From the NCBI GenBank assembly GCA_009924775.1, contig RFQY01000005.1, positions 1-37,200 of the forward strand: a stretch of DNA of 37,200 nt, read 5' to 3'. Source of the stretch: Paracoccaceae bacterium (GTDB lineage: Bacteria; Pseudomonadota; Alphaproteobacteria; Rhodobacterales; Rhodobacteraceae). Below are positions 9,043 to 27,726 of this stretch, piece by piece (the stretch's first letter is position 1; each line of letters opens with the position of its first letter). Under the pieces are notes generated by a model. That model worked only from the letters and a program-made list of their open reading frames with translations, ran no database searches and was not told the origin of the DNA. The translations under genes and the position numbers were made by a program.

Positions 9043-10467
<1,425 letters not shown>

Positions 10468-10485
10468 CTATTCGTCTCCGTCCTC

Positions 10486-11364
10486 TTAGAGCGCCTCGGC
10501 GCCCGAGATGATTTCAATAAGCTCGTTCGTGATCACTGCTTGACGCGAACGGTTGTATTGGATCGTCAGTTTGTCGATCATGTCGCCCGCATTGCGCGTT
10601 GCGTTGTCCATTGCGGACATGCGCGCGCCCTGCTCGGATGCTGCGTTTTCCAGCAGTGCCGAGAAGATCTGCGTTGCCACACCGCGCGGCAGAAGGTCGG
10701 CCAAGATGGCCTCTTCGTCCGGTTCATAGTCGAACAGTGTGGTGTCTGCAGCCGCTTCGCCCGTTTGGTCGAAAGCGGCAGGAATGATCTGCTGCGCGGT
10801 CGGGATCTGGCTGATCACCGACTGGAAGCGGTTGAAAAAGATCGTTGCCACGTCAAACTCGCCCGCGTCAAAGCGTGCCAGCACATCGCGCGCGATGTCT
10901 TGCGCGTTGGCGTAACCCAAGCGTTTCACTTCGCTCAGATCGACGTGACCAATGAACAGGTCTGCGTAATCACGCTTCAGCTGCTCACGGCCCTTTTTAC
11001 CGACGGTCAAGATTTTAACCGTCTTGCCAGCCGCCCGCAGTTCGGCCACGCGAACGCGCGCCAGCTTCACGATCGAACTGTTGAAACCGCCGCACAGGCC
11101 ACGTTCCGACGTCATGACCACCAGCAGCTGCACTTGGTCGCTGCCCGTGCCCGACAACAAGCGCGGGGCGCTGTCCGAGCCGCCAACCGATGCAGCAAGC
11201 CCCGCCAGAACGGTGTTGAACCGTTCTGCATAGGGGCGCCCTGCCTCGGCTGCATCTTGTGCCCGCCGCAGTTTTGCGGCGGCCACCATCTGCATGGCCT
11301 TGGTGATCTTGCGGGTCGATTTGACCGACTCGATCCTGTTTTTTAGATCCTTGAGAGAAGGCAT
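10486..11364 (-). CDS. atpG: F1 ATP synthase gamma subunit
   Basis: The 292-residue protein forms the central shaft. The N-terminal coiled helix is [19 protein letters not shown] followed by [17 protein letters not shown]; the central fold has [12 protein letters not shown]; and the C-terminal helix contains [17 protein letters not shown] and [23 protein letters not shown]. All are diagnostic. Gaps to atpA and atpD are 12 and 18 bases. Confidence 0.97.
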
Positions 11365-11376
11365 CCCATCTCTCCC

Positions 11377-12915
11377 TTATGCGAAGTCAGCTGCGAATTC
11401 GTCCAGCGCTGCTTTGATACGGTCCTCGGCGTCGCCCTTCACTTTGGGGTCTTCCGTTGTGATCCAATCCAGCAGGTCGGCATGCTTGCCGCGCAGATGC
11501 GCCAGCAGGCCTTGCTCCCAGCGGCTAACGTCGCGCAGGGCAACTTTGTCCAAGTAGCCTTTGGTGCCAGCATAGATCACGCATACGATTTCCGCGTTGG
11601 TCAGCGGTGCGTATTGCGGCTGTTTCATCAGCTCGGTCAGGCGCGAACCACGGTTCAGCAGCTGCTGGGTGGCGGCATCCAGATCCGAACCAAACTGCGC
11701 AAATGCAGCCATTTCACGGTACTGAGCCAGCGACAGTTTCACTGGGCCAGCAACCGATTTCATGGCGTTGGTCTGCGCCGACGACCCCACGCGCGACACC
11801 GACAAACCGGTGTTCACAGCGGGGCGGATCCCTTGGTAGAACAGTTCCGTTTCCAAGAAGATCTGGCCATCGGTGATCGAGATCACGTTGGTCGGAATAA
11901 AGGCCGACACGTCGCCGCCTTGGGTTTCGATCACCGGCAAAGCGGTCAGCGAGCCCGAGCCGTTGTCTTCGTTCAGCTTCGCCGAACGCTCCAGCAGGCG
12001 GGAGTGCAGGTAGAACACGTCACCAGGATAGGCTTCGCGGCCCGGCGGGCGGCGCAGCAACAGCGACATCTGGCGGTAGGAAACGGCTTGCTTGGACAAG
12101 TCATCATAAATGATCAGCGCGTGCTTGCCGTTGTCGCGGAAATATTCGGCCATGGCCGTTGCGGAATAGGGCGCCAAGAACTGCATCGGTGCCGGGTCGG
12201 ATGCGGTTGCAGCCACAACCACGGTATACTCGATCGCGCCGCTTTCTTCCAACTTTTTCACCAGCTGGGCCACGGTCGAACGCTTTTGGCCGATCGCAAC
12301 ATAGATGCAATACAGTTTCTTGCTTTCGTCGTCGCCGGCCGCGTCGTTATACGACTTTTGGTTCAAAATCGCGTCCAGTGCGATCGCGGTTTTGCCGGTC
12401 TGGCGGTCGCCGATGATCAATTCGCGCTGGCCACGGCCAATCGGGATCATCGCGTCCACGGCTTTCAGGCCAGTGGCCATCGGCTCGTGCACCGATTTAC
12501 GCGGGATAATGCCGGGCGCCTTTACGTCGGCCACGCGACGCTCGGTTGCGTTGATGGCGCCTTTGCCATCCAGCGGGTTGCCCAGACCATCGACAACGCG
12601 GCCCAGCAGCTCGGGGCCGGCGGGAACGTCCACGATCGACTTGGTGCGCTTTACCGTGTCGCCTTCTTTGATCTCGCGGTCGGAACCGAAGATCACAACA
12701 CCCACGTTGTCCGACTCGAGGTTCAGGGCCATGCCCTGAATGCCGCCGGGGAATTCGACCATTTCACCGGCCTGAACATTGTCGAGGCCATACACACGGG
12801 CAATACCGTCGCCGACCGACAGCACCCGGCCGACCTCGGCCACTTCGGTTTCTTGCCCGAAGTTCTTGATCTGGTCCTTCAGGATCGCAGAAATCTCTGC
12901 CGCTTGGATACCCAT
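11377..12915 (-). CDS. atpA: F1 ATP synthase alpha subunit
   Basis: This 512-residue nucleotide-binding subunit has the P-loop GDRQTGKT at residues 169-176 and [23 protein letters not shown], which carries the arginine-finger region. The N-terminal beta-barrel begins [16 protein letters not shown]. Its ATG directly follows the atpH TAA with no gap (TAAATG), a sign of translational coupling. A purine-rich GAAAGAGG site lies in the end of atpH. Confidence 0.98.
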
Positions 12916-13476
12916 TTATCCGACCTCTTTCATTGCATTCTGGAGGGAGTTCAGCTTCGAGGCGATCGAGGTGTCGATCATCTTCGAACCCATTTTGACG
13001 ACAAGACCACCGATAAGTTTCTCATCGACGGTCGCGCTAATTTTCACCGATTTACCGACACTGGACGCCAGCGCTTTTGCCAGCTTGTCTGCCTGTGTCT
13101 TGGTCAACGCTTTGGCGCTGGTAACCTCGGCGGTGATTTCACCCTTGTCCTCGGCGATAGCAGCCCGCAGGGCCTGCACCAACTGGGGAAGGATGTACAA
13201 GCGGCGCTTGTTCGACATAAGCGCCAGAACATTCGACACGATGGTCGAAAGCCCCATTTTTTTGGCCAGCGCCGCGATGGCGCCTGCCTGTTCGTCGCGG
13301 CTGTAAACCGGCGAAGAGATCAGCGCGCGGAAATCTGCGCTGTCTGCCAATGCCGCTTCCAGCGCGTCAAGGTCGGTTTCAACCTTGGCGACAGCTTTGT
13401 CTTCTTTGGCCAACTCAAAAACGGCCTTGGCATAGCGTGCTGCAATGCCCATGGAAATCGAAGCTGGTTCGGACAC
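12916..13476 (-). CDS. atpH: F1 ATP synthase delta subunit
   Basis: The 186-residue protein carries the OSCP/delta N-terminal helical domain ([17 protein letters not shown]) and a C-terminal segment ([30 protein letters not shown], read in two parts) typical of AtpH. It links F1 to the peripheral stalk. There is no upstream ATG in the conserved position. Two GTG codons compete, at 13482 and 13476. The GGAAGG site at 13488-13483 abuts the first and is correctly spaced for the second, so I prefer 13476. It is the first gene of the operon; F0 genes are absent here, as in related bacteria where F0 and F1 operons are separate. Confidence 0.92.
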
Positions 13477-13482
13477 GTCCAC

Positions 13483-15517: not shown

Positions 15518-17848
15518 GTGCCTTCATTCTCTAGCACGCTGGAACAGGCCATTCACGCAGCTTTGGCACTTGCCAATGCACGCCGCCACGAATTTGCAAC
15601 GCTGGAGCATCTGCTTTTGGCGCTGGTCGACGAACCCGATGCCGCCCGCGTGATGAAGGCATGTTCGGTCGATACCGAAGAATTGCGCCAAACATTGGTG
15701 GAATTCATCGATGACGAGCTGGCCAACCTGATCACCGATATCGACGGCTCGGAAGCCGTGCCAACCGCCGCCTTCCAACGCGTCATCCAACGCGCCGCGA
15801 TCCACGTGCAATCGTCTGGCCGCACCGAAGTGACCGGCGCCAATGTCTTGGTGGCCATCTTCGCCGAACGCGAAAGCAACGCGGCCTATTTCCTGCAAGA
15901 ACAGGACATGACACGCTATGACGCGGTGAATTTCATCGCCCATGGCGTTGCCAAAGACCCCGCCTATGGCGAAAACCGCTCGGTGCAGGGGGCCGAAGCC
16001 GCAGAAAGCGAAGACACGCGCCCCGGCAGTTCCGACAAGGTAACCGAGGGGGAATCGGCCCTTGCCAAATATTGCGTGGATCTGAACGAAAAGGCGCGCA
16101 CCGGCGATGTAGACCCGCTGATCGGCCGCGCCTCCGAGGTTGAACGCTGCATCCAAGTGCTGTGCCGCCGGCGCAAGAACAACCCGCTGTTGGTGGGCGA
16201 TCCGGGCGTGGGCAAAACCGCCATTGCCGAAGGGCTGGCACGCAAAATCGTGCAAGGCGAAACCCCCGAAGTGCTGTCAAAAACCGTGATTTTCAGCCTT
16301 GATATGGGCGCGCTTTTGGCCGGCACCCGCTATCGTGGTGATTTCGAAGAACGGCTAAAGGCTGTGGTGACCGAATTGGAAAACCACCCCGATGCCGTAT
16401 TGTTCATCGATGAAATCCACACCGTGATCGGCGCGGGCGCCACGTCGGGCGGGGCTATGGATGCCTCGAACCTGCTCAAACCCGCGCTTCAGGGCGGCAA
16501 ATTGCGCTGCATGGGCTCGACCACCTACAAAGAGTTCCGCCAGCATTTCGAAAAAGACCGGGCGCTATCGCGGCGTTTTCAGAAAATCGACGTGAACGAA
16601 CCCTCGACCGATGACACAATCAAAATTCTCAAAGGCATCAAAAGCTATTTCGAAGAACATCACGGCGTAAAATACACCAGCGATGCCATCAAAACCGCGG
16701 TCGAACTGTCGGCCCGCTACATCAACGACCGCAAGTTGCCCGACAAGGCCATTGATGTCATCGACGAGGCCGGCGCAGCCCAGCATCTGCTGGCTGAATC
16801 AAAGCGGCGAAAAACCATTGGCACCAAGGAAATCGAGGCGGTGATCGCAAAAATTGCGCGCATTCCCCCGAAAAATGTTTCGAAAGACGATGCCGAAGTT
16901 CTGAAAGACCTTGAAAAAACGCTCAAACGCGTGGTTTTCGGCCAAGACCCCGCCATCGAGGCGCTGTCAAGCGCCATCAAACTGGCGCGCGCGGGCCTGC
17001 GCGAGCCGGAAAAACCCATCGGCAACTACCTCTTTGCTGGCCCCACCGGCGTGGGCAAAACCGAAGTGGCAAAACAGCTGGCCGATACGCTGGGCGTGGA
17101 ACTGCTGCGCTTTGACATGTCGGAATATATGGAAAAACACGCCGTATCACGCCTGATCGGTGCGCCCCCCGGCTATGTCGGCTTTGATCAGGGTGGCATG
17201 CTCACCGATGGGGTCGATCAACACCCGCATTGCGTGTTGCTGCTGGACGAGATCGAAAAAGCCCACCCCGATGTGTTCAACATTTTGCTGCAAGTGATGG
17301 ATCATGGCACATTGACCGATCACAATGGCCGCAAGGTGGATTTCCGCAATGTGATCTTGATCATGACATCGAACGCGGGCGCCGCCGATATGCAAAAGGC
17401 CGCCATCGGCTTTGGCCGTGATCGCCGCGAAGGCGAAGATACAGCCGCGATCGAACGCACCTTCACCCCTGAATTCCGCAACCGTCTGGATGCCACCATC
17501 TCGTTCCAGCCGCTGCCCAAAGGGGTGATTTTGCAAGTGGTCGAAAAATTTGTGCTGCAACTGGAAGCACAGCTGATGGACCGCAATGTGCAAATCGAAC
17601 TTACCCACCCCGCCGCCGAATGGCTGGGGGAAAAGGGCTATGACGATAAAATGGGGGCCCGCCCCTTGGGCCGGGTGATCCAAGAGCACATAAAAAAACC
17701 CCTGGCCGAGGAATTGCTGTTTGGCAAATTGGCCAAGGGCGGCGTGGTGCGGGTGGCTGTGAAAAATGGCCAAATCGATCTGCAAATCTCGGGTCCCGAC
17801 CGGCCACAGCTGTCTGGCTCTAAGCCGCCACTTTTGACAGCCGAGTGA
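15518..17848 (+). CDS. clpA: ATP-dependent Clp protease ATP-binding subunit ClpA
   Basis: The 776-residue AAA+ unfoldase has an N-terminal Clp repeat domain (LEQAIHAALALANARRHEF), which binds the adaptor ClpS in known systems. Two ATPase modules follow: Walker A GDPGVGKT (residues 227-234) with VLFIDEIHTVIGAG, and Walker A GPTGVGKT (508-515) with VLLLDEIEKAHPDV. It feeds substrates to ClpP. The start is GTG at 15518, supported by an AGGAAGGAG site 8 bases upstream. No clpS is beside it, unlike many genomes where clpS precedes clpA. The last codons overlap the next gene by four bases (GTGA). Confidence 0.96.
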   Translation: MPSFSSTLEQAIHAALALANARRHEFATLEHLLLALVDEPDAARVMKACSVDTEELRQTLVEFIDDELANLITDIDGSEAVPTAAFQRVIQRAAIHVQSSGRTEVTGANVLVAIFAERESNAAYFLQEQDMTRYDAVNFIAHGVAKDPAYGENRSVQGAEAAESEDTRPGSSDKVTEGESALAKYCVDLNEKARTGDVDPLIGRASEVERCIQVLCRRRKNNPLLVGDPGVGKTAIAEGLARKIVQGETPEVLSKTVIFSLDMGALLAGTRYRGDFEERLKAVVTELENHPDAVLFIDEIHTVIGAGATSGGAMDASNLLKPALQGGKLRCMGSTTYKEFRQHFEKDRALSRRFQKIDVNEPSTDDTIKILKGIKSYFEEHHGVKYTSDAIKTAVELSARYINDRKLPDKAIDVIDEAGAAQHLLAESKRRKTIGTKEIEAVIAKIARIPPKNVSKDDAEVLKDLEKTLKRVVFGQDPAIEALSSAIKLARAGLREPEKPIGNYLFAGPTGVGKTEVAKQLADTLGVELLRFDMSEYMEKHAVSRLIGAPPGYVGFDQGGMLTDGVDQHPHCVLLLDEIEKAHPDVFNILLQVMDHGTLTDHNGRKVDFRNVILIMTSNAGAADMQKAAIGFGRDRREGEDTAAIERTFTPEFRNRLDATISFQPLPKGVILQVVEKFVLQLEAQLMDRNVQIELTHPAAEWLGEKGYDDKMGARPLGRVIQEHIKKPLAEELLFGKLAKGGVVRVAVKNGQIDLQISGPDRPQLSGSKPPLLTAE

Positions 17849-18840
17849 GGCAAGCCGCCCACAAAGCGCGCTGGGCCCTGGCCCTTGGTTTGGGGGGCTT
17901 GGGCCTGTTGGCAGGCCATAGCGCGGCGGCAAATCCGCCGCGCTTGGGGCTGCCCGTATCGTGCAGCTTGGGCGAAACCTGCTTTATCCAACAATTCGTC
18001 GACCACGCCCCCGGCCCCACGGCCCGCGATTATACCTGCGGCGCACTCAGCTATGATGGGCATAAGGGCACCGATTTTGGCCTGCCCAACATGCAGCACA
18101 TGGCGGCGGGCGTTGATGTGCTGGCCGCCGCGCCAGGCCGCGTGGCCGGCACCCGCGATGGCATGCCCGATACCGGCTGGGCGCCCACGCTGGCCGGGCG
18201 CGAATGCGGCAATGGCGTGGTGATCCAGCATGCCGACGGCTGGGAGACGCAATATTGCCACATGAAACAAGGCAGTATCGCCGTGCAACGCGGCCAAACC
18301 GTGCAGGCAGGCACGGTTTTGGGGCAAGTGGGCTTTTCTGGGCGCACCGAATTTCCACATCTGCACCTGTCGGTGCGCCATGACGGCCAAGTGATCGACC
18401 CGTTTGATGCCGATGGCCAAATCAGTTGCTTGGGCGAAGGGCACACCAGCCTATGGGCCATGCCCCTGCCCTATCAACCCGGCGGGCTGTTGGCGGGTGG
18501 CTTTGCCGAGAATGTGCCAAGTTTCGATGCGGTCAAGGCCGGCACAGCCAGCCCCAAACCAAACCGCCTGCCCCGCCAACCAAAGGCGCTGGTGTTTTGG
18601 GCCCATGGCTTTGGTGCCAAGCCTGGCGACCAACTGGATATTGCCATCACCGCCCCCGATGGCAGCACTTTTTTCCAAACCCGTGTGACGCTGGAAAAAA
18701 CCCAAGCGCAATCTTTCCGCGCCGCCGGGCGCCGGGTTTCTGCCCCGCTGATGGCGGGGCTTTATTCGGGGCGCGCCACCTTGCTGCGCGCGGGCGAACA
18801 ATTGGGCCAAAGCGAAGGCCAGATCACAATTGCCGATTAA
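17845..18840 (+). CDS. Secreted M23-family (LytM-type) metallopeptidase
   Basis: The 331-residue protein has a signal peptide of about 29 residues (basic start, Leu/Gly-rich core, SAAAN cleavage region). A LytM fold follows with zinc ligands His73 and Asp77 in GHKGTDFG and His172/His174 in PHLHLSVR, plus the QYCHMKQGS strand. Family enzymes cut peptidoglycan peptide bridges; the active residues look complete. A C-terminal domain of about 130 residues (from about 200) is a likely beta-sandwich of unknown role. The start is GTG overlapping the clpA stop, so translation is coupled to a cytoplasmic protease subunit, an unexpected pairing. It ends three bases before the convergent OmpA-type gene. 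Confidence 0.87.
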   Translation: MRQAAHKARWALALGLGGLGLLAGHSAAANPPRLGLPVSCSLGETCFIQQFVDHAPGPTARDYTCGALSYDGHKGTDFGLPNMQHMAAGVDVLAAAPGRVAGTRDGMPDTGWAPTLAGRECGNGVVIQHADGWETQYCHMKQGSIAVQRGQTVQAGTVLGQVGFSGRTEFPHLHLSVRHDGQVIDPFDADGQISCLGEGHTSLWAMPLPYQPGGLLAGGFAENVPSFDAVKAGTASPKPNRLPRQPKALVFWAHGFGAKPGDQLDIAITAPDGSTFFQTRVTLEKTQAQSFRAAGRRVSAPLMAGLYSGRATLLRAGEQLGQSEGQITIAD

Positions 18841-18843
18841 CGC

Positions 18844-20754
18844 CTAACGTTCGGTCAGTTTCAATTCGATCCGGCGGTTTTGCGCCCGCGCTTCGGGGGT
18901 GTTTTCGGGGTTCACCGGCTGGAATTCGCCAAAGCCATTCGCCGCCAGCCGGTTGGGGGGGATACCCAAGTTGGTAATCATATGGCGCACCACCGACAAA
19001 GCCCGCGCTTGGCTAAGTTCCCAGTTATCGGCAAAATCGCCCTCGCCCGATAGGGGCACGTTGTCGGTATGGCCATCCACGCGGATGATCCAATCTATAC
19101 CCGGTGGAATTTCGCCCGCGACATTGCGCAATATGGCGGACACTTTGGCCACTTCGCCCATGCCTGCCGCGCTTAGCTCGGCATCGCCGGGGGGGAATAG
19201 CACCTCGGACGAGAAGACAAATCTGTCGCCCTCGATGCGCACCCCCTCTTGGCCACCCAAGATATCGCGCAGGCGGCCAAAAAATTCGCTGCGGTATTTT
19301 TCTAGGTCGCGTTTTTCCGCTTCAAGGCGCTGGCGTTCGGCCTCTTTTTCCGCCTCAAGGCGCAGGCGCTCGGCCTCTTTTTCCACCTCAAGGCGCTGAC
19401 GTTCGGCCTCTTCCAACAGGCGGCGGCGGCGTTCTTCTGCAGCCACACGCGCCAAAGCTGCGTTCAAATCCGAGCCTAAGGTTTGCAGCTGCACCTTATC
19501 TGCCGCAGCGCGGTCTTTGTAGTCATCCAGCAACGCTTGCAAGGCGCCCAATTGCGTGCGCAGCGCTGCCACTTGCTGGTTTAGCAGGGCCTGTTGGCGC
19601 TGCGCCTGGGTGCTTTGGGCCTCGGCGCCTTGCAGGGCTTTGTTGGCCTCGGCCAACAAGATCTGGCGCTGCTCTGCCTCGGTCAGCGCGGTTTCGGCGC
19701 GGCCTTCGGCTGCCAATTTTGCGGCCAAGGCTTGCGCCAATTGGGCGCGCAGTGCCTCGGCATTGGCGGCCAATTCTGCCTCGGTGGCATTCAAGTTTTG
19801 GTTTTCTGCCAATGCAGCGGCCAGATCTTTGGCCAAATCATCTTCGGCAGCACGGGCCGCGGCCAGCAATGTAAGCGTGTCTTCGGCCTTTTTGCGCTGC
19901 GCCTCTAGCGCCATGGTCATGGCGGTCAGTTCGGCATCGGCATTTTCCAAACGATTGCGCAGCGCTTGGGCGGCGGCGGCTTCGGCAAGCCGGGCCATTT
20001 CCGCATCAGTTAGTTGGGCATCAAGCTGCGCAACCTGCCCCTGCAAATCGCCCAGATTACTGCGCGCGCCGTCAAGATCGGATTGCAAACTGGCAATCAA
20101 GGCCTGCATTTGTTGTTCGCGCGTTTGCGCCTGCGCCGCCGCATCGCCCGCTTGCTGGCGCAAATCAGCGATCAGCGCTTCCAGCGCTTCGCGCCGTGCG
20201 GCTGCCAAACGCGCGGCTTCAGCGCTGGCATCCAGTTCCGAACGGGCGCTGGCCAAGGCGGCATTCAACGCCTCTTGCTGGGACAAAAGCGTGGTTTTCT
20301 CGCCTTGCAGCGCGGCCACATTCGCCAAGGCATCATCGCGCGCGGCCAGCAAACTGGCCACTTGCGCCTCGAAGCTGGTGATCAGGCCTTGGGCGGCCTG
20401 CAACGCGGCCTCGCGCGCGCCCAGATCGGTTTGCAAAGCGGCGATCAGCGCCTGCTGTGCCTGCGCCTCGGTGCGGGCTTGGGCCAAGGTGGCATCCAAC
20501 TCGCCCACGCGGGAAGACAGCGCTTCGCTGCGGCGCTGTTCCAACCCCAGCGCCTGTGCCAGGGCCGCAATCTCGGATGACAGGCTGTCAAGCCGCTTGT
20601 CTTGGCCAGAAATGGTTTCGCGCAGCACATATTGCATGACCATAAAGATCGTCAGCACGAAAACCAGCACCATCAACAGGCCGGTCACGGCATCCACAAA
20701 CCCCGGCCAAATAGACCCTTGCAGCCGTTGCCCAGTGCGGCGGGACAGCGCCAT
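18844..20754 (-). CDS. OmpA/MotB-type peptidoglycan-binding protein with long coiled coil
   Basis: The 636-residue protein has a short cytoplasmic start, one membrane helix (about residues 16-44, PGFVDAVTGLLMVLVFVLTI), then roughly 430 residues of Ala/Glu/Gln-rich heptads predicted to be coiled coil. Next is a highly charged 11-residue repeat, then an OmpA-like domain (about 505-636) with VDGHTDNVPLSGEGDF, NWELSQARALSV and AQNRRIELKLTER. The layout is that of MotB/TolR-type stators: membrane anchor, spacer, peptidoglycan grip. Three bases separate its start from the ExbB-like gene's stop, so the pair is one unit. Pal-like lipidation signals are absent. Its cellular task is not known to me. 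Confidence 0.85.
   Translation of the reverse strand: MALSRRTGQRLQGSIWPGFVDAVTGLLMVLVFVLTIFMVMQYVLRETISGQDKRLDSLSSEIAALAQALGLEQRRSEALSSRVGELDATLAQARTEAQAQQALIAALQTDLGAREAALQAAQGLITSFEAQVASLLAARDDALANVAALQGEKTTLLSQQEALNAALASARSELDASAEAARLAAARREALEALIADLRQQAGDAAAQAQTREQQMQALIASLQSDLDGARSNLGDLQGQVAQLDAQLTDAEMARLAEAAAAQALRNRLENADAELTAMTMALEAQRKKAEDTLTLLAAARAAEDDLAKDLAAALAENQNLNATEAELAANAEALRAQLAQALAAKLAAEGRAETALTEAEQRQILLAEANKALQGAEAQSTQAQRQQALLNQQVAALRTQLGALQALLDDYKDRAAADKVQLQTLGSDLNAALARVAAEERRRRLLEEAERQRLEVEKEAERLRLEAEKEAERQRLEAEKRDLEKYRSEFFGRLRDILGGQEGVRIEGDRFVFSSEVLFPPGDAELSAAGMGEVAKVSAILRNVAGEIPPGIDWIIRVDGHTDNVPLSGEGDFADNWELSQARALSVVRHMITNLGIPPNRLAANGFGEFQPVNPENTPEARAQNRRIELKLTER
19323..19421. 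repeat. Three imperfect 33-bp tandem repeats inside the OmpA-type gene
   Basis: Units start at 19323, 19356 and 19389, each beginning CAAGGCGC and containing CGGCCTCTT; the third is diverged at its end. On the minus strand each unit encodes an 11-residue charged repeat of the type EAERQRLEAEK. An 11-residue (hendecad) period extends a coiled-coil rod just before the peptidoglycan-binding domain. Such repeats can change copy number by slippage. Confidence 0.8.
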
Positions 20755-20757
20755 GCC

Positions 20758-21978
20758 CTAGCCTCCGCTGCCGGTGTCGTTAGGGTCGGTTTTCTGGATG
20801 GGCGCGCCAAAATGCAGCCGCACAGGCGCGGGTTTGCCCCGCCCTGCCACGGCTTGGGTCAGCGCGTTCAGCTCTTGGCGCAGCTGTTCTACGCTTTCTT
20901 GGCGACCAGCGCTGATTTCTTCCAAAATCCGCAGCAACTGCACATCGATCGAACGCAGGCGCATGCGGCTTTCGGCATCTATGCCCTCGCCCTGCCCCTG
21001 CGCGCCCACGGCCTGTGCCAATTCTGCCTGCGCATCTGCCAAGCGGCTGATCGCGTCGTGCACCGCCCCCGACCCTGCAAGCCGGTCGGTTAACCGTTCC
21101 ACCGACACCGCCAAAGACGACAGTTGCCGTTCCAATGCTTGGCGGCCATGCTCGCCCTCGGCGTGCAGCTGTTGCAGCCCCTGCATTTGGCCCGACATAC
21201 GGTCCATCAGCTGGATCATCACCGCTTGGTCGCCGCTATCGCCCTCGTGGCCAGAAAACCCCAACCGCGTGATCGAGCTTAGCCATTCTTCCAGCTCGCG
21301 GTAAAAGCGGTTTTGCCCATGGCCTGCAAACAATTCCAGCAGCCCCACCACCAGCGAGCCCGCCAAGCCCAGCAAGGACGAGCCGAAGGCCACCCCCATG
21401 CCAGACAGCTGCGCGTCAAGCCCGCTCATCAGGCGGCCAAAGACCGCCACGCCTTCCTCGCCCTCTTGCGGGGCAAGGCCGCGGATGGTGTCAACCAAGG
21501 CGGGCACCGTGGTGGCCAGCCCATAGAACGTGCCCAAAAGGCCCAAGAAAATCAGCAAGTTCACGATGTAGCGCGTAATCTCGCGGTCTTCGTCGATGCG
21601 GGTCGAAACGGAATCTAGGATCGAGCGGGTGCTGGTGGCCGCAATCTGCATCTGCGCCGCGCGCGAACGCAGCAACGTGGCCAAGGGGGCCAACAGAACA
21701 GGCGCGCGCCCCACGCTGCCGCCATCGCGGGCAAAGCCCACAATCCAGCGCACCGAGGTTAATAATTGTGCCACCTGCCAAAAACAGGCCAAGACCCCCA
21801 AGAGAAACACGAAAAAGATAAACCCGTTCAAATAGGGGTTTGCGTCGAAAATGGGCATGACGGTGGGTAAGGCCATCATCACAACCACGCCGGTCAATGC
21901 CAGCACCAGCACCATCAGAACAATCTGACGGATTGGCAGCGTGAAATGTGGCTCGGCCTCGCGGTCCGGCTGATCCAT
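20758..21978 (-). CDS. MotA/TolQ/ExbB-family proton channel protein
   Basis: The 406-residue protein has membrane helices near residues 18-38, 47-72, 133-160 and 195-222. The third and fourth (LLIFLGLLGTFYGLATTVPAL and GMGVAFGSSLLGLAGSLVVGLLE, the latter given in part) show the MotA/TolQ/ExbB channel signature. A C-terminal helical tail of about 180 residues has heptads. I chose the ATG at 21978, which has an AGGA site, over in-frame starts up to 22041. With the downstream OmpA-type gene it should form a proton-driven inner-membrane complex. The pair resembles ZorA/ZorB of Zorya defence, but no ZorC/D/E gene is present, so housekeeping envelope work is more likely. Confidence 0.85.
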   Translation of the reverse strand: MDQPDREAEPHFTLPIRQIVLMVLVLALTGVVVMMALPTVMPIFDANPYLNGFIFFVFLLGVLACFWQVAQLLTSVRWIVGFARDGGSVGRAPVLLAPLATLLRSRAAQMQIAATSTRSILDSVSTRIDEDREITRYIVNLLIFLGLLGTFYGLATTVPALVDTIRGLAPQEGEEGVAVFGRLMSGLDAQLSGMGVAFGSSLLGLAGSLVVGLLELFAGHGQNRFYRELEEWLSSITRLGFSGHEGDSGDQAVMIQLMDRMSGQMQGLQQLHAEGEHGRQALERQLSSLAVSVERLTDRLAGSGAVHDAISRLADAQAELAQAVGAQGQGEGIDAESRMRLRSIDVQLLRILEEISAGRQESVEQLRQELNALTQAVAGRGKPAPVRLHFGAPIQKTDPNDTGSGG

Positions 21979-22045: not shown

Positions 22046-22576
22046 TTATCCGCATAGGTTGCGCACCTGCTGGTCTAGCCACGCCAAATCTGGATCGTGA
22101 ATGCCCAACTGCTGCAAATGGGCAACGGTATTGTGCAAATATTCTGCATTCGGCCCACGCCCGCCGATGGCGCTGGCGATAATCTGGGCTTGCTCGTCCA
22201 AGGGCAGGCCACCGCAATATTGCACATGCAAAGGGTCGATCACATAACACACCGCCTGCACCTGCCGCCCGTCTTGCAGGTGCAGGGGCAAAACCTGTTC
22301 AAGATAGGCCGAAGACACCAGTTCACGGTCGCGCAAATAGGCCATGACCTGCGCCTCTTCGCCGCTGCGCACCTCAAACGCCACCCCGCTGCACACAGAC
22401 TGGGGGGCAGCATCTAATGCCAGCACCAGCCCAGGCGCCTGTGGCGTGCCACGATGGTGGATCGAGCGCATGCAAAACGATCGGTGCCACCCTTCCAGAC
22501 GGGCCACCACCTGCGCCTGGGGTTGAAACCCGGGGTTCCACAGCAAAGATCCATATCCAAATACCCAAAGTGTCAT
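22046..22576 (-). CDS. Glutathione-specific gamma-glutamylcyclotransferase (ChaC-like)
   Basis: The 176-residue protein begins TLWVFGYGSLLWNPGF, containing the YGSL substrate loop of the cyclotransferase fold. It continues with RSFCMRSIHHRGTPQAPGLVLAL and a segment LRDRELVSSAYLEQ that carries the likely catalytic Glu. ChaC enzymes split glutathione into 5-oxoproline and Cys-Gly in the cytosol. The ATG at 22576 is where homology begins; the open frame upstream lies antisense to the next gene and was discarded. The 3' end sits 67 bases before the ExbB-like ATG on the same strand, so co-transcription with that pair is possible. Confidence 0.85.
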   Translation of the reverse strand: MTLWVFGYGSLLWNPGFQPQAQVVARLEGWHRSFCMRSIHHRGTPQAPGLVLALDAAPQSVCSGVAFEVRSGEEAQVMAYLRDRELVSSAYLEQVLPLHLQDGRQVQAVCYVIDPLHVQYCGGLPLDEQAQIIASAIGGRGPNAEYLHNTVAHLQQLGIHDPDLAWLDQQVRNLCG

Positions 22577-22640
22577 AGCGCTGGCCCTAGTGCTTTGACC
22601 CCTGTAAACACTGCCTGAAACCGAATGGAAAGTGCCCATC

Positions 22641-23645
22641 ATGAAACGCCTCACTGCTATCGTCGTGATCGTCGCCAGCCTTTGGGCGGGGTATTGGTTC
22701 ATGGGGGCAACAGGGCTGAAACGCGGGCTAGAGGCATGGCTGCAAGAGCGCCGCGCAGCCGGGTGGCAGGCCGATGTAGCAGATCTGACGGTGATGGGCT
22801 TTCCCAACCGTTTCGATACCACGTTTGGCGAATTTGTATTGGCCGATCCCAACAGCGGCTGGGCGTGGCAAGCGCCCTTTTTCCAATTATTGGCCCTTAG
22901 CTACCGGCCCAATCATGTCATCGCGGTATGGCCAAACAGCCAAACATTAGCCACGCCTTTGCAAAAGTTTCAGATCAGCAGCGCCAGCATGCAAGCCAGC
23001 CTGCGCCTTGGCAGCAGCACCGATTTGCCGCTAGAGCGGGCCAATCTGGTGGCCGATACGCTGCTGATCACCGACGAGGCGGGCGAAAGCACGGCGATGA
23101 CTGCGCTGCGCATGGCGGTCGAGCGGGTCGAGGGCCACGCGGCCCGCTATCATTTCGGTTTTGCCGCCGAAGATCTAGAACCGGCAAAATCAGCCCGCTT
23201 GGCGCTGGATATGGGCGGCAACTTGCCCCCCCGTTTCAGCAATTTTAGCGCCGATATTACCGCCGATTTCACCCAAGCATGGGACCGCGCCGCGCTAGAG
23301 TCGCGCCGCCCCCAGCCTGTGATGGTGGATATCGCCGCCATCAACGCGCAATGGGGCCAGATGGAATTGGCCATGGCTGGGCAATTGCAAATCGATGCGG
23401 CCGGCGTGCCCACGGGGCAAGTGGTGATCAAGGCCCGCAACTGGCGCGATATTTTGGCCATGGCCGTGGCCAGCGGGGCGGTGCCACAGGCGCTGGCCAG
23501 ACAGGCCGAACAGGGCCTGCAGATGCTGGCGCAAATGTCGGGCGACCCAAACACCTTGGACCTGCCCATCGATTTTCGCGCAGGGCTGATCATGGTGGGT
23601 GGGGTGCTGCCGCTTGGCCCGGCGCCAAAACTGCAGCTGCGCTAA
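22641..23645 (+). CDS. DUF2125 protein, membrane-anchored
   Basis: The 334-residue protein has an N-terminal membrane helix or uncleaved signal (RLTAIVVIVASLWAGYWFMG) followed by a long beta-rich periplasmic part (VMGFPNRFDTTFGEFVLADP, WQAPFFQLLALSYRPNHVI, VKARN-type strands). This matches DUF2125 (PF09898), found mainly in alphaproteobacteria. The function is unknown; its repeated beta-strand pattern is reminiscent of envelope AsmA-like proteins, which is only my inference. A GGAAAG site precedes the ATG at 22641. It converges on tyrC with five bases between the stops. Confidence 0.75.
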   Translation: MKRLTAIVVIVASLWAGYWFMGATGLKRGLEAWLQERRAAGWQADVADLTVMGFPNRFDTTFGEFVLADPNSGWAWQAPFFQLLALSYRPNHVIAVWPNSQTLATPLQKFQISSASMQASLRLGSSTDLPLERANLVADTLLITDEAGESTAMTALRMAVERVEGHAARYHFGFAAEDLEPAKSARLALDMGGNLPPRFSNFSADITADFTQAWDRAALESRRPQPVMVDIAAINAQWGQMELAMAGQLQIDAAGVPTGQVVIKARNWRDILAMAVASGAVPQALARQAEQGLQMLAQMSGDPNTLDLPIDFRAGLIMVGGVLPLGPAPKLQLR

Positions 23646-26652: not shown

Positions 26653-27726
26653 CTAGGCCGCTTTGTGCAACAATATCGCGGCATCCGTGGCGCTAAGGCT
26701 GCGGCGCGCAAAGCCGCCATAGCTGCTTGTGTCATGCTCTAGCATCGGTTGCAGGGCAAACAGGCGCTGGCGATCTGCGTCTGACAGGGTGGACAGGGCC
26801 GTGCTGGCGGGATGGAAGCTTTCGCATTCCACGCCATTGGCCCAAACCACATGATGCGCGGGCAACATCAGGTGAATATAGGTCACTTCGCGCATGGCCG
26901 TATCCACCACCACCGTGCGACCATTCACCAAATCGGCGGCGCGCACCAGAACCTCGGGGGTGTTAAACAACGCCCGCGCCGAGGGGCCCGTGACCAGCAG
27001 GCGATGTTCGGGCGAAAGCACCAGTTCCTGATCTGGCCGTTCAATGCCAAAGGCCCCCGCCCGCACCCGCACAGGGCGCAGGTGTGGCATGGCAAACAGC
27101 CGTGCCCCCGTCATGCGGCGCTGGCCGATCCACAAGATATCTTGCGGGCCGCTGTCTTTGGTGTTCACCTGCTGGCCCTCGCGCAGCGCCTCGACGGGGC
27201 GGGGGCCTTGTGGTGTTTGAACCATGGTGCCGGGGGTGAAACAAATCACCCCCCCGCTGGCAGGGCCCATGGGGTTTGACTGGGCTTGGTTGCCCAAATT
27301 ATGGTGCACCACCCACAAGTCGCGCTGGCGTGGCGGCACTGGGCCCGAGAACATCACCAAGGGCTGCGCCCCTTGGCCCACCGGTATCAATGTCAGCGTG
27401 TAGGTCTTCAACCCATCGCTGACGATAATGGCATAATCGTCTGAAAGCATGGCAGCGTCATCTGCTGCCTGTTGCCGCGCCGGCGTGGTGCCCAGGGCAA
27501 CCCCTACCAAGCGGCGTACCGCACGCGCAGCGCGCTTGCGGCTATCTTCTTGCATGTCTGCATCTTCCAGCCGCAACAACGAGGCGGGCCCATCCACACG
27601 GATCAGCTCGCCCCCCCACGACCAAGCAGCGCCCACAGTAAGAATATCAATTGGGGCGGCTTGAAAGCCGTCTAGTGCCGTTTGCGACCAAGAGATGACA
27701 AACGTGCCCCCACAGCCCGTTTTCAT
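26653..27726 (-). CDS. Hint-domain protein (hedgehog/intein-like)
   Basis: The 357-residue protein has an N-terminal part of about 160 residues with no motif I recognise. A Hint module then starts at Cys162 (ICFTPGTMVQTPQGPRPVEA) and contains SPEHRLLV with His241, in the place of the block-B histidine, and ends around AHHVVWANGVECESFHP. This is the bacterial Hint_2-type domain (PF13403), common in Rhodobacteraceae. No clear C-terminal splice junction (HN plus nucleophile) is seen, so splicing is unlikely; cleavage or a structural role are both possible. No signal peptide is visible. The start at 27726 has only a weak AGG site. Confidence 0.78.
   Translation of the reverse strand: MKTGCGGTFVISWSQTALDGFQAAPIDILTVGAAWSWGGELIRVDGPASLLRLEDADMQEDSRKRAARAVRRLVGVALGTTPARQQAADDAAMLSDDYAIIVSDGLKTYTLTLIPVGQGAQPLVMFSGPVPPRQRDLWVVHHNLGNQAQSNPMGPASGGVICFTPGTMVQTPQGPRPVEALREGQQVNTKDSGPQDILWIGQRRMTGARLFAMPHLRPVRVRAGAFGIERPDQELVLSPEHRLLVTGPSARALFNTPEVLVRAADLVNGRTVVVDTAMREVTYIHLMLPAHHVVWANGVECESFHPASTALSTLSDADRQRLFALQPMLEHDTSSYGGFARRSLSATDAAILLHKAA

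Follow-up and report, generated by a model that had tools for sequence, protein, structure and literature searches.

How could an ion-driven force from the inner membrane reach the cell wall at a distance, and what would it be for, next to Tol-Pal? This clear structural question is raised by a gene pair in a 37,200-nucleotide stretch of DNA from a Paracoccaceae bacterium (GenBank assembly GCA_009924775.1, contig RFQY01000005.1, positions 1 to 37,200 of the forward strand), the whole of which we call the window. The pair consists of a channel gene (A) and a gene for an OmpA-type wall-binding protein (B). A first-pass annotation, made from the sequence alone, had placed the two genes three bases apart, and the open reading frames and the gap (20755-20757, between the stop of the channel gene and the start of the B gene) are as it described them. 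Our analysis indicates that the pair very probably has the architecture of an ion motor, and that it is no isolated oddity but an ordinary component of many Alphaproteobacteria, widely inherited and hardly studied. The new points are its class-wide spread and the hugely variable, apparently register-locked arm that carries the wall anchor.

Channel, wall anchor and spread of the pair

The channel protein scores 14.4 bits (E = 0.032) on the Pfam profile MotA_ExbB, under the gathering score of 22.9 bits, and by its sequence it is a divergent branch that this profile misses. We aligned both subunits with E. coli TolQ, ExbB, MotA, TolR, ExbD, MotB and Pal, and with ZorA3 and ZorB3 rows. Channel residue T150, which lies in a GT motif, aligns with the Thr of TolQ, ExbB and ZorA (ZorA3 rows), and S201 aligns with the Thr of TolQ and ExbB and with the Ser of ZorA; E. 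coli MotA differs at the T150 position, and the GT pore motif is absent from it in this alignment. Both residues are invariant in 28 class-wide homologues and in 52 Rhodobacteraceae-centred channel sequences (the window and 51 others, drawn from the 77 loci that have both genes; the corresponding set for the partner is the window and 41 others).

The AlphaFold2 model of the channel has a helical core (mean predicted local distance difference test score, pLDDT, of 77.6 over the whole chain) and a cytoplasmic helical tail of ∼130 residues, predicted with moderate to low confidence (block pLDDT ∼55-75). The tail motif is kept in most class homologues, and the shortest homologues are without most of the tail. 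In a Foldseek search with this model the leading ranks were all TolQ, ExbB or ZorA chains, with a best E-value of 5.3e-3 and none at 0.001. Alignment of the core with VIA-align gave Z scores of 12.2 for TolQ (8vlw, root-mean-square deviation (rmsd) 3.6, 187 residues aligned), 11.7 for ExbB, 10.8 for ZorA and 10.0 for MotA, a range in which helical bundles can match by shape alone, so that the modelled fold appears compatible with a motor channel, not decisive for it. A sequence search of solved structures with a channel profile returned mostly coiled-coil matches of the tail, together with one ZorA chain (8vvi) at E = 0.54.

The B protein is laid out as a transmembrane segment, a proline-free coil and an OmpA domain. 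It is a member of the catalogued family NCBIfam NF006542 (PRK09039.1; 793.3 bits, E = 2.3e-238, curated cut-off 388 bits) and also matches the sister models NF006543-NF006546; our literature search found no paper testing function under the PRK09039.1/NF006542 name. The OmpA domain matches PF00691 over residues 519-627 (60.5 bits against a cut-off of 27.2, E = 2.1e-16). Residue D21 aligns with the transmembrane Asp of TolR, ExbD, MotB and ZorB, and the wall-binding positions of MotB, ZorB3 and Pal have their counterparts in D564, R584 and N626-R628; all of these positions are invariant in the 28 class-wide homologues and in the 42 Rhodobacteraceae-centred partner sequences. The end domain of the AlphaFold2 model of B superimposes on H. 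pylori MotB with a VIA-align Z score of 17.0 (rmsd 1.9, 124 residues aligned).

It is this combination, a multi-helix channel with a pore Thr and Ser, a single-pass partner with a pore Asp, a heptad coil and a MotB-type wall domain, that makes an ion-motor architecture very probable. The annotation's reading of a motor-type channel with a wall-binding partner is thus supported: T150, S201 and D21 align with the pore residues of TolQR, ExbBD and ZorAB, and the conserved channel residues on which it had made that reading depend (T150 and S201) are present in the alignment.

How widespread is the pair? Of 289 alphaproteobacterial genomes, 189 gave a match to the channel (161 of the 235 good ones did), with two or three matches in 7 of the 189 and one in each of the others. 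About two thirds of the sampled genomes thus carry it, yet only one functional study of a probable member was found in the literature searched. At all 40 class loci (39 hand-picked from the channel matches, plus the window) the two genes are adjacent, co-directional and in the same order, with gaps of -4 to 74 bases. Conservation of the neighbourhood in Rhodobacterales was a check that the annotation had proposed, and at Rhodobacteraceae loci the pair is adjacent in 77 of 81 cases; the exceptions are L094, L137 and L149, which are without one partner (the sequence ends 0.7-1.9 kb past the channel), and L135, where the genes overlap by 29 bases. The B family, together with FliG, MreB and TolB (below), was checked in 48 hand-picked genomes, 24 with the channel (A-positive) and 24 without it (A-negative). 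Every A-positive genome has a B-family match at E≤1.1e-60, the best match in the A-negative genomes is 3.9e-14, and none of 14 control genomes passed the cut-off of the B-family model. The suggestion that the pair might be undescribed does not survive, since B falls in a catalogued family, the pair is widespread in the class, and probable orthologues in Komagataeibacter hansenii have been studied (PMC6570709).

Members of the pair also occur outside Alphaproteobacteria in the same phylum (L173:5543-7441, L174:4744-7002 and L175:4040-5851), with short B proteins of 355-361 residues. Genome G444, which is 100% complete and belongs to the window's own family, yielded neither A nor B, a natural loss. 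A second strong B-family match (1.6e-91) in genome G015 (contig C23:681-1565) lies in a 1276-residue open frame and is a possible giant paralogue; genome G131 also carries two strong B-family matches.

Periodicity and length steps of the coil

The coil of the window's B protein is 447 residues long, which is the median of 77 Rhodobacteraceae homologues (window included; range 326-968), so that the annotation's word "extreme" applies only in comparison with MotB and ZorB. Not one proline occurs in the 38,231 coil residues of these homologues (L139, one of 78 B proteins, was skipped in the coil-composition and coil-length sets), and their mean hydrophobic spectrum peaks at a period of 3.50. At 36 other class loci the coil measures 117-411 residues, with one proline in 8,834 residues, and all 36 coils have a period of 3.50-3.54. 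The 3.5-residue period was tested individually in the window and in five homologues chosen at random, the others entering the mean spectrum only; for the window the power at this period is 3.97, compared with a shuffle mean of 0.65, and it was equalled in none of 200 shuffles. Judged by this periodicity, the window's coil is a genuine heptad coiled coil, far beyond chance. The long coil is where the annotation had put it, on the OmpA partner, and it has the coiled-coil character without which the annotation had said that its motor reading would fail.

We then compared coil lengths. Differences between disjoint nearest relatives fall into steps of 3.5 residues (mean cosine 0.52, a value that none of 20,000 random draws reached), and 16 of the 34 non-zero differences are multiples of 7. 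Among distinct coil lengths outside Rhodobacteraceae (n = 25), the resultant at period 3.5 is 0.85 and 16 lengths fall in one class modulo 7; within Rhodobacteraceae (n = 63) the resultant is weaker, at 0.46, and 20 lengths fall in that class. The coil was also divided into segments between its conserved motifs in the 74 of 78 B proteins that have all motifs in order. Nearest relatives differ in segment length by multiples of 7 in 11/11, 12/13, 14/18 and 16/17 pairs, or 53/59 altogether, while two other segments never vary and the segment between motifs C and D is hypervariable (31-646 residues). Motifs were placed by best match and may slip by one repeat in a repetitive coil; the total-length tests are independent of this placement.

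The heptad phase averaged over 46 homologues stays within ∼55 degrees from residue 47 to residue ∼290, and averaged over 78 homologues it stays within ∼42 degrees around motif C. Together, the length steps and the phase suggest that the coil is largely one coiled coil that changes by whole heptads or by half-heptad steps, with motif E as a special place. The quantisation of coil length in steps of 3.5 or 7 residues is a new observation. Within the window's own coil, a 33-bp tandem repeat at the C-terminal end fits the excess of 22 residues over the modal spacing of motifs E and F (61 against 39).

Reach of the arm and role of the motor

A coiled coil rises 0.1485 nm per residue, and the periplasm is some 20-30 nm deep. 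At this rise the 447 residues of the window's coil amount to ∼66 nm, and the arms of the family would measure 17-144 nm if straight, many of them more than the periplasm is deep. An arm of ∼66 nm exceeds the depth of the periplasm, so the arms of Rhodobacteraceae must be strongly tilted, run along the envelope or double back; that the coil is an extended single rod we hold to be about an even chance.

We propose that the pair forms an inner-membrane motor that is driven by ions, has a housekeeping role and is of the same kind as MotAB, TolQR and ZorAB. By homology with these systems, five A subunits would surround two B subunits, ions would pass D21 and T150/S201, and A would turn relative to a B dimer held by the wall. 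The length of the coil suggests that the two B chains form one parallel coiled coil lying at a low angle along the envelope; the grip on the wall would be displaced laterally from the motor by tens of nanometres, a span across which torque or tension would be transmitted between membrane and wall. If this is correct, the arm is register-locked, with a length that is free to vary, mostly by increments that preserve the angle of the anchor relative to the pore, and it couples membrane and wall over a long range through torque or tension. To our knowledge, such a long-range wall-anchor arm is not part of the design of MotAB, TolQR, ExbBD or ZorAB. Taken with all its parts at once, that is, a class-wide ion motor whose wall anchor sits on a register-locked arm, of a reach set by lineage, running along the envelope, the proposal is tentative and somewhat unlikely to hold entire.

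What would such a motor be for? The prospects that the pair is a motor and also has a housekeeping role in the envelope seem evenly balanced, and those of the likeliest use, a part in envelope remodelling or cell division alongside Tol-Pal and not replacing it, a little below even. Functional observations come from the motA/motB genes of K. hansenii, which are probable orthologues on grounds of size, layout and class-wide matches. According to PMC6570709, these genes encode proteins of 348 and 321 residues and form an adjacent pair in a genus without flagella, the MotB-like partner having a C-terminal OmpA-like domain; their overexpression gave longer cells, often chained with septum-like regions, faster colony spreading and looser cellulose, and C-terminal green fluorescent protein fusions were located at the cell poles. 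The same paper notes neighbouring pairs in other Alphaproteobacteria. The K. hansenii genes resemble the pair studied here in their adjacency and in the OmpA-like end of the partner, and differ in the coil, which must be short in a 321-residue protein. A text search of the main text of a Sinorhizobium paper on Rgs and Tol-Pal (PMC7327166) returned no MotA, MotB, ExbB or OmpA, hence no link; an Azospirillum paper (PMC4264754) makes one passing mention of a MotA/TolQ/ExbB member, which it does not identify. A tie to MreB was rejected, since two of the 24 A-positive genomes and four of the 24 A-negative ones are without MreB. A replacement for Tol-Pal was rejected because every one of the 24 A-positive genomes has TolB, as do 23 of the 24 A-negative ones. 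No tolA, tolB or pal was found among the window proteins scanned with Pfam.

Several observations weigh against a class-wide motor with an extended, register-locked arm. For the channel, a designed three-helix bundle reaches a VIA-align Z score of 10.8, level with ZorA. As for spread, 100 of the 289 genomes gave no channel match, although some of these negatives may be false because the survey scored at most six candidates per genome. The K. hansenii phenotype comes from overexpression, overexpression of the same genes in E. coli changed nothing (PMC6570709), and the orthology is only a probable one. For the arm itself, only 9 of 27 pairs differ by multiples of 7 in the segment between motifs C and D; at motif E the averaged heptad phase is displaced by more than 100 degrees; and the phase of the window's own coil is less steady, drifting from -99 to -183 degrees over residues 173-215, extending to -214 degrees up to residue 341 (-253 in one weak stretch), and shifting by more than 100 degrees after residue ∼435. 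The heptad steps could also stem partly from repeat slippage instead of selection. Finally, the AlphaFold2 model of B breaks the coil at residues 174-180, 293-297 and 419-427, with pLDDT below 50 there; the breaks lie near the conserved motifs B, C and E, and real hinges or hairpins are possible at these places.

Such breaks lead to a different picture of the arm, in which the coil is folded into hairpins of roughly periplasm depth and serves as a compact spacer, while the rest of the motor proposal stands. The four modelled helices (154, 114, 123 and 73 residues) are consistent with this picture, as are two movements of the window's phase, one of ∼80 degrees close to the first break and one exceeding 100 degrees close to the last. 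The homologue-averaged phase, however, moves by less than 55 degrees at the first break and by ∼40 degrees at the second, the coil has almost no prolines, and the range of lengths between motifs C and D fits no fixed set of hairpins; moreover, the breaks come from a single-chain model with a low predicted template modelling score (pTM 0.36). We regard hairpins as possible, at a likelihood clearly short of even, and favor the extended arm over them.

Other explanations concern what the motor does, or whether it is a motor at all. The pair could be a Tol/Ton-like energiser that drives an outer-membrane partner through the coil of B or through an unknown third protein, the wall domain being only an anchor. 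In its favor, TolQ and ExbB are the best VIA-align rows for the channel (Z 11-12.2; ZorA reaches 10-10.8 and MotA 9.6-10, so that the gaps are ∼1-2, and all of these scores are common among helical bundles). The channel has the pore Thr of TolQ and, with the same caution about bundles, may share its core fold. However, the pair is separate from Tol-Pal and coexists with it, as the presence of TolB in all A-positive genomes shows; no third gene stands out near the pair, the commonest other families occurring in at least 14 of the 40 class loci (lower bounds); and the E. coli TolR and ExbD genes are both short. We know of no such long coil in E. coli TolR or ExbD, and of no OmpA domain in TolR. 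An energiser of this type is, in our judgment, improbable. Nor do we favor a wall sensor or passive tether, in which the channel would report wall strain or damage and do no work: it would suit a wall-binding domain on a long arm with no obvious driven partner, but T150, S201 and D21 are invariant in all aligned homologues, as if ions pass. Although this invariance does not separate sensing from work, we rate the sensor as decidedly improbable.

Could the pair instead belong to Zorya-type anti-phage defence, or derive from it? It resembles ZorA/ZorB in having a channel and a wall-binding partner with a pore Asp, in the GT motif and in the cytoplasmic tail of the channel (see also PMC11890865), and PADLOC profiles matched the channel to ZorA1 (7.3e-11) and B to ZorB3 (1.4e-19). 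The best PADLOC score of the channel is nevertheless only 39.5 bits, against 815-1088 bits for the ZorA3 controls L167, L168 and L171. No ZorC-, ZorD- or ZorE-type match at 1e-5 was found among the 10 flanking proteins scanned, in agreement with the annotation, which had seen no nuclease or helicase gene nearby. The defence models that a ClpA-like neighbour matches are different ones that contain AAA domains, as expected of a Clp ATPase, and the pair occurs mostly in one copy per genome, in an ordinary setting and often beside housekeeping genes. Zorya membership was rejected on the low profile score and the missing effector genes, and a defence role or a derivative of one is very unlikely. 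The annotation had also contrasted the pair with Zorya by the position of the long helix, on the channel in Zorya and on the OmpA partner here; the long coil does lie on the periplasmic partner B, but the channel has its own cytoplasmic tail, and to that extent the contrast fails.

In a tree of the channel family, five ZorA3-like rows form a separate clade (100/100), of which three are confirmed by PADLOC and two (L169 and L170) were outside the PADLOC scan; elsewhere 10 of the 18 inner branches are open. A locus labelled "zorlike" (L172:2021-3807, genome G433) encodes a 333-residue channel-like protein and a 263-residue downstream neighbour, with no PADLOC match at 1e-10; its channel falls outside the ZorA3-like clade, and the two are perhaps another uncharacterised pair.

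An alternative flagellar stator would explain why the wall domain is closest in fold to MotB, why NCBIfam MotB-type models match, and why the pore Asp is shared. The pair occurs without FliG, however: FliG is absent from 8 of 24 A-positive genomes and present in 19 of 24 A-negative ones, and the stator was rejected on this co-occurrence. The channel also carries the GT pore motif of TolQ, ExbB and ZorA, a motif absent from the aligned E. coli MotA, and MotB has a short plug and linker (PMC12505986). We consider a stator extremely unlikely.

Genomic setting and features of the locus

The setting of the pair is a housekeeping one. At the 40 class loci, the same-strand genes upstream include those of the inositol-phosphatase family (14), EF-P (13), thiamine-phosphate synthase-type proteins (13), transketolase (11) and GAPDH (8), all of these being lower bounds owing to strict clustering, under which only 27 of the 40 class channels grouped together. 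At the 81 Rhodobacteraceae loci, the neighbours include DUF2125 (53), clpA (52), glyoxalase-II-type (47), ChaC (47) and M23 peptidase (36) genes, again as lower bounds from strict clustering. The clpA and M23 genes are almost always encoded on the strand opposite to the pair, which indicates synteny and not an operon. A same-strand family that includes the ChaC gene of locus L077 is directly upstream in 47 of the 81. Homology of the window's ChaC-type gene to L077 begins at codon 93, so that its true start may be near 22576. A promoter scan found none and is uninformative here.

Table 1. Positions of the gene pair, its parts and the flanking ChaC-type gene in the window
Feature	Coordinates	Strand	Details and basis
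Channel (A) subunit, MotA/TolQ/ExbB/ZorA-type core with cytoplasmic helical tail	20758..21978	-	406 residues
Channel core helices, residues 16-242	21253..21933	-	AlphaFold2 model and VIA-align
Codon of pore residue T150 (GLLGTF motif)	21529..21531	-	Invariant; alignment
Codon of pore residue S201	21376..21378	-	Invariant; alignment
Channel cytoplasmic helical tail, residues 249-379, SRxxLRxxDVxLxRxxEE motif	20842..21234	-	AlphaFold2 model and class alignment
Wall-anchor (B) subunit, NCBIfam NF006542 "peptidoglycan-binding protein"	18844..20754	-	636 residues
Codon of B-subunit pore aspartate D21 (WPGFVD)	20692..20694	-	Invariant; alignment
Proline-free heptad coiled coil of B, residues ∼47-480	19315..20616	-	
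33-bp tandem repeat, C-terminal end of coil	19312..19412	-	3.1 copies, 89% matches, 11-residue units
OmpA/MotB-type peptidoglycan-binding domain of B, residues 505-636	18847..19242	-	Pfam and VIA-align
ChaC-type gene upstream of channel gene	22046..22852	-	Flanking; not claimed as part of the motor

On the other side of the pair, the M23 peptidase gene (17845-18840) is convergent with the B gene, and its start overlaps the end of clpA (15518-17848) by 4 bases. Farther away, the window contains ATP synthase genes (9043-13482) and, at 26653-27726, a gene for a 357-residue protein with a Hint domain (PF13403, 3.2e-54).

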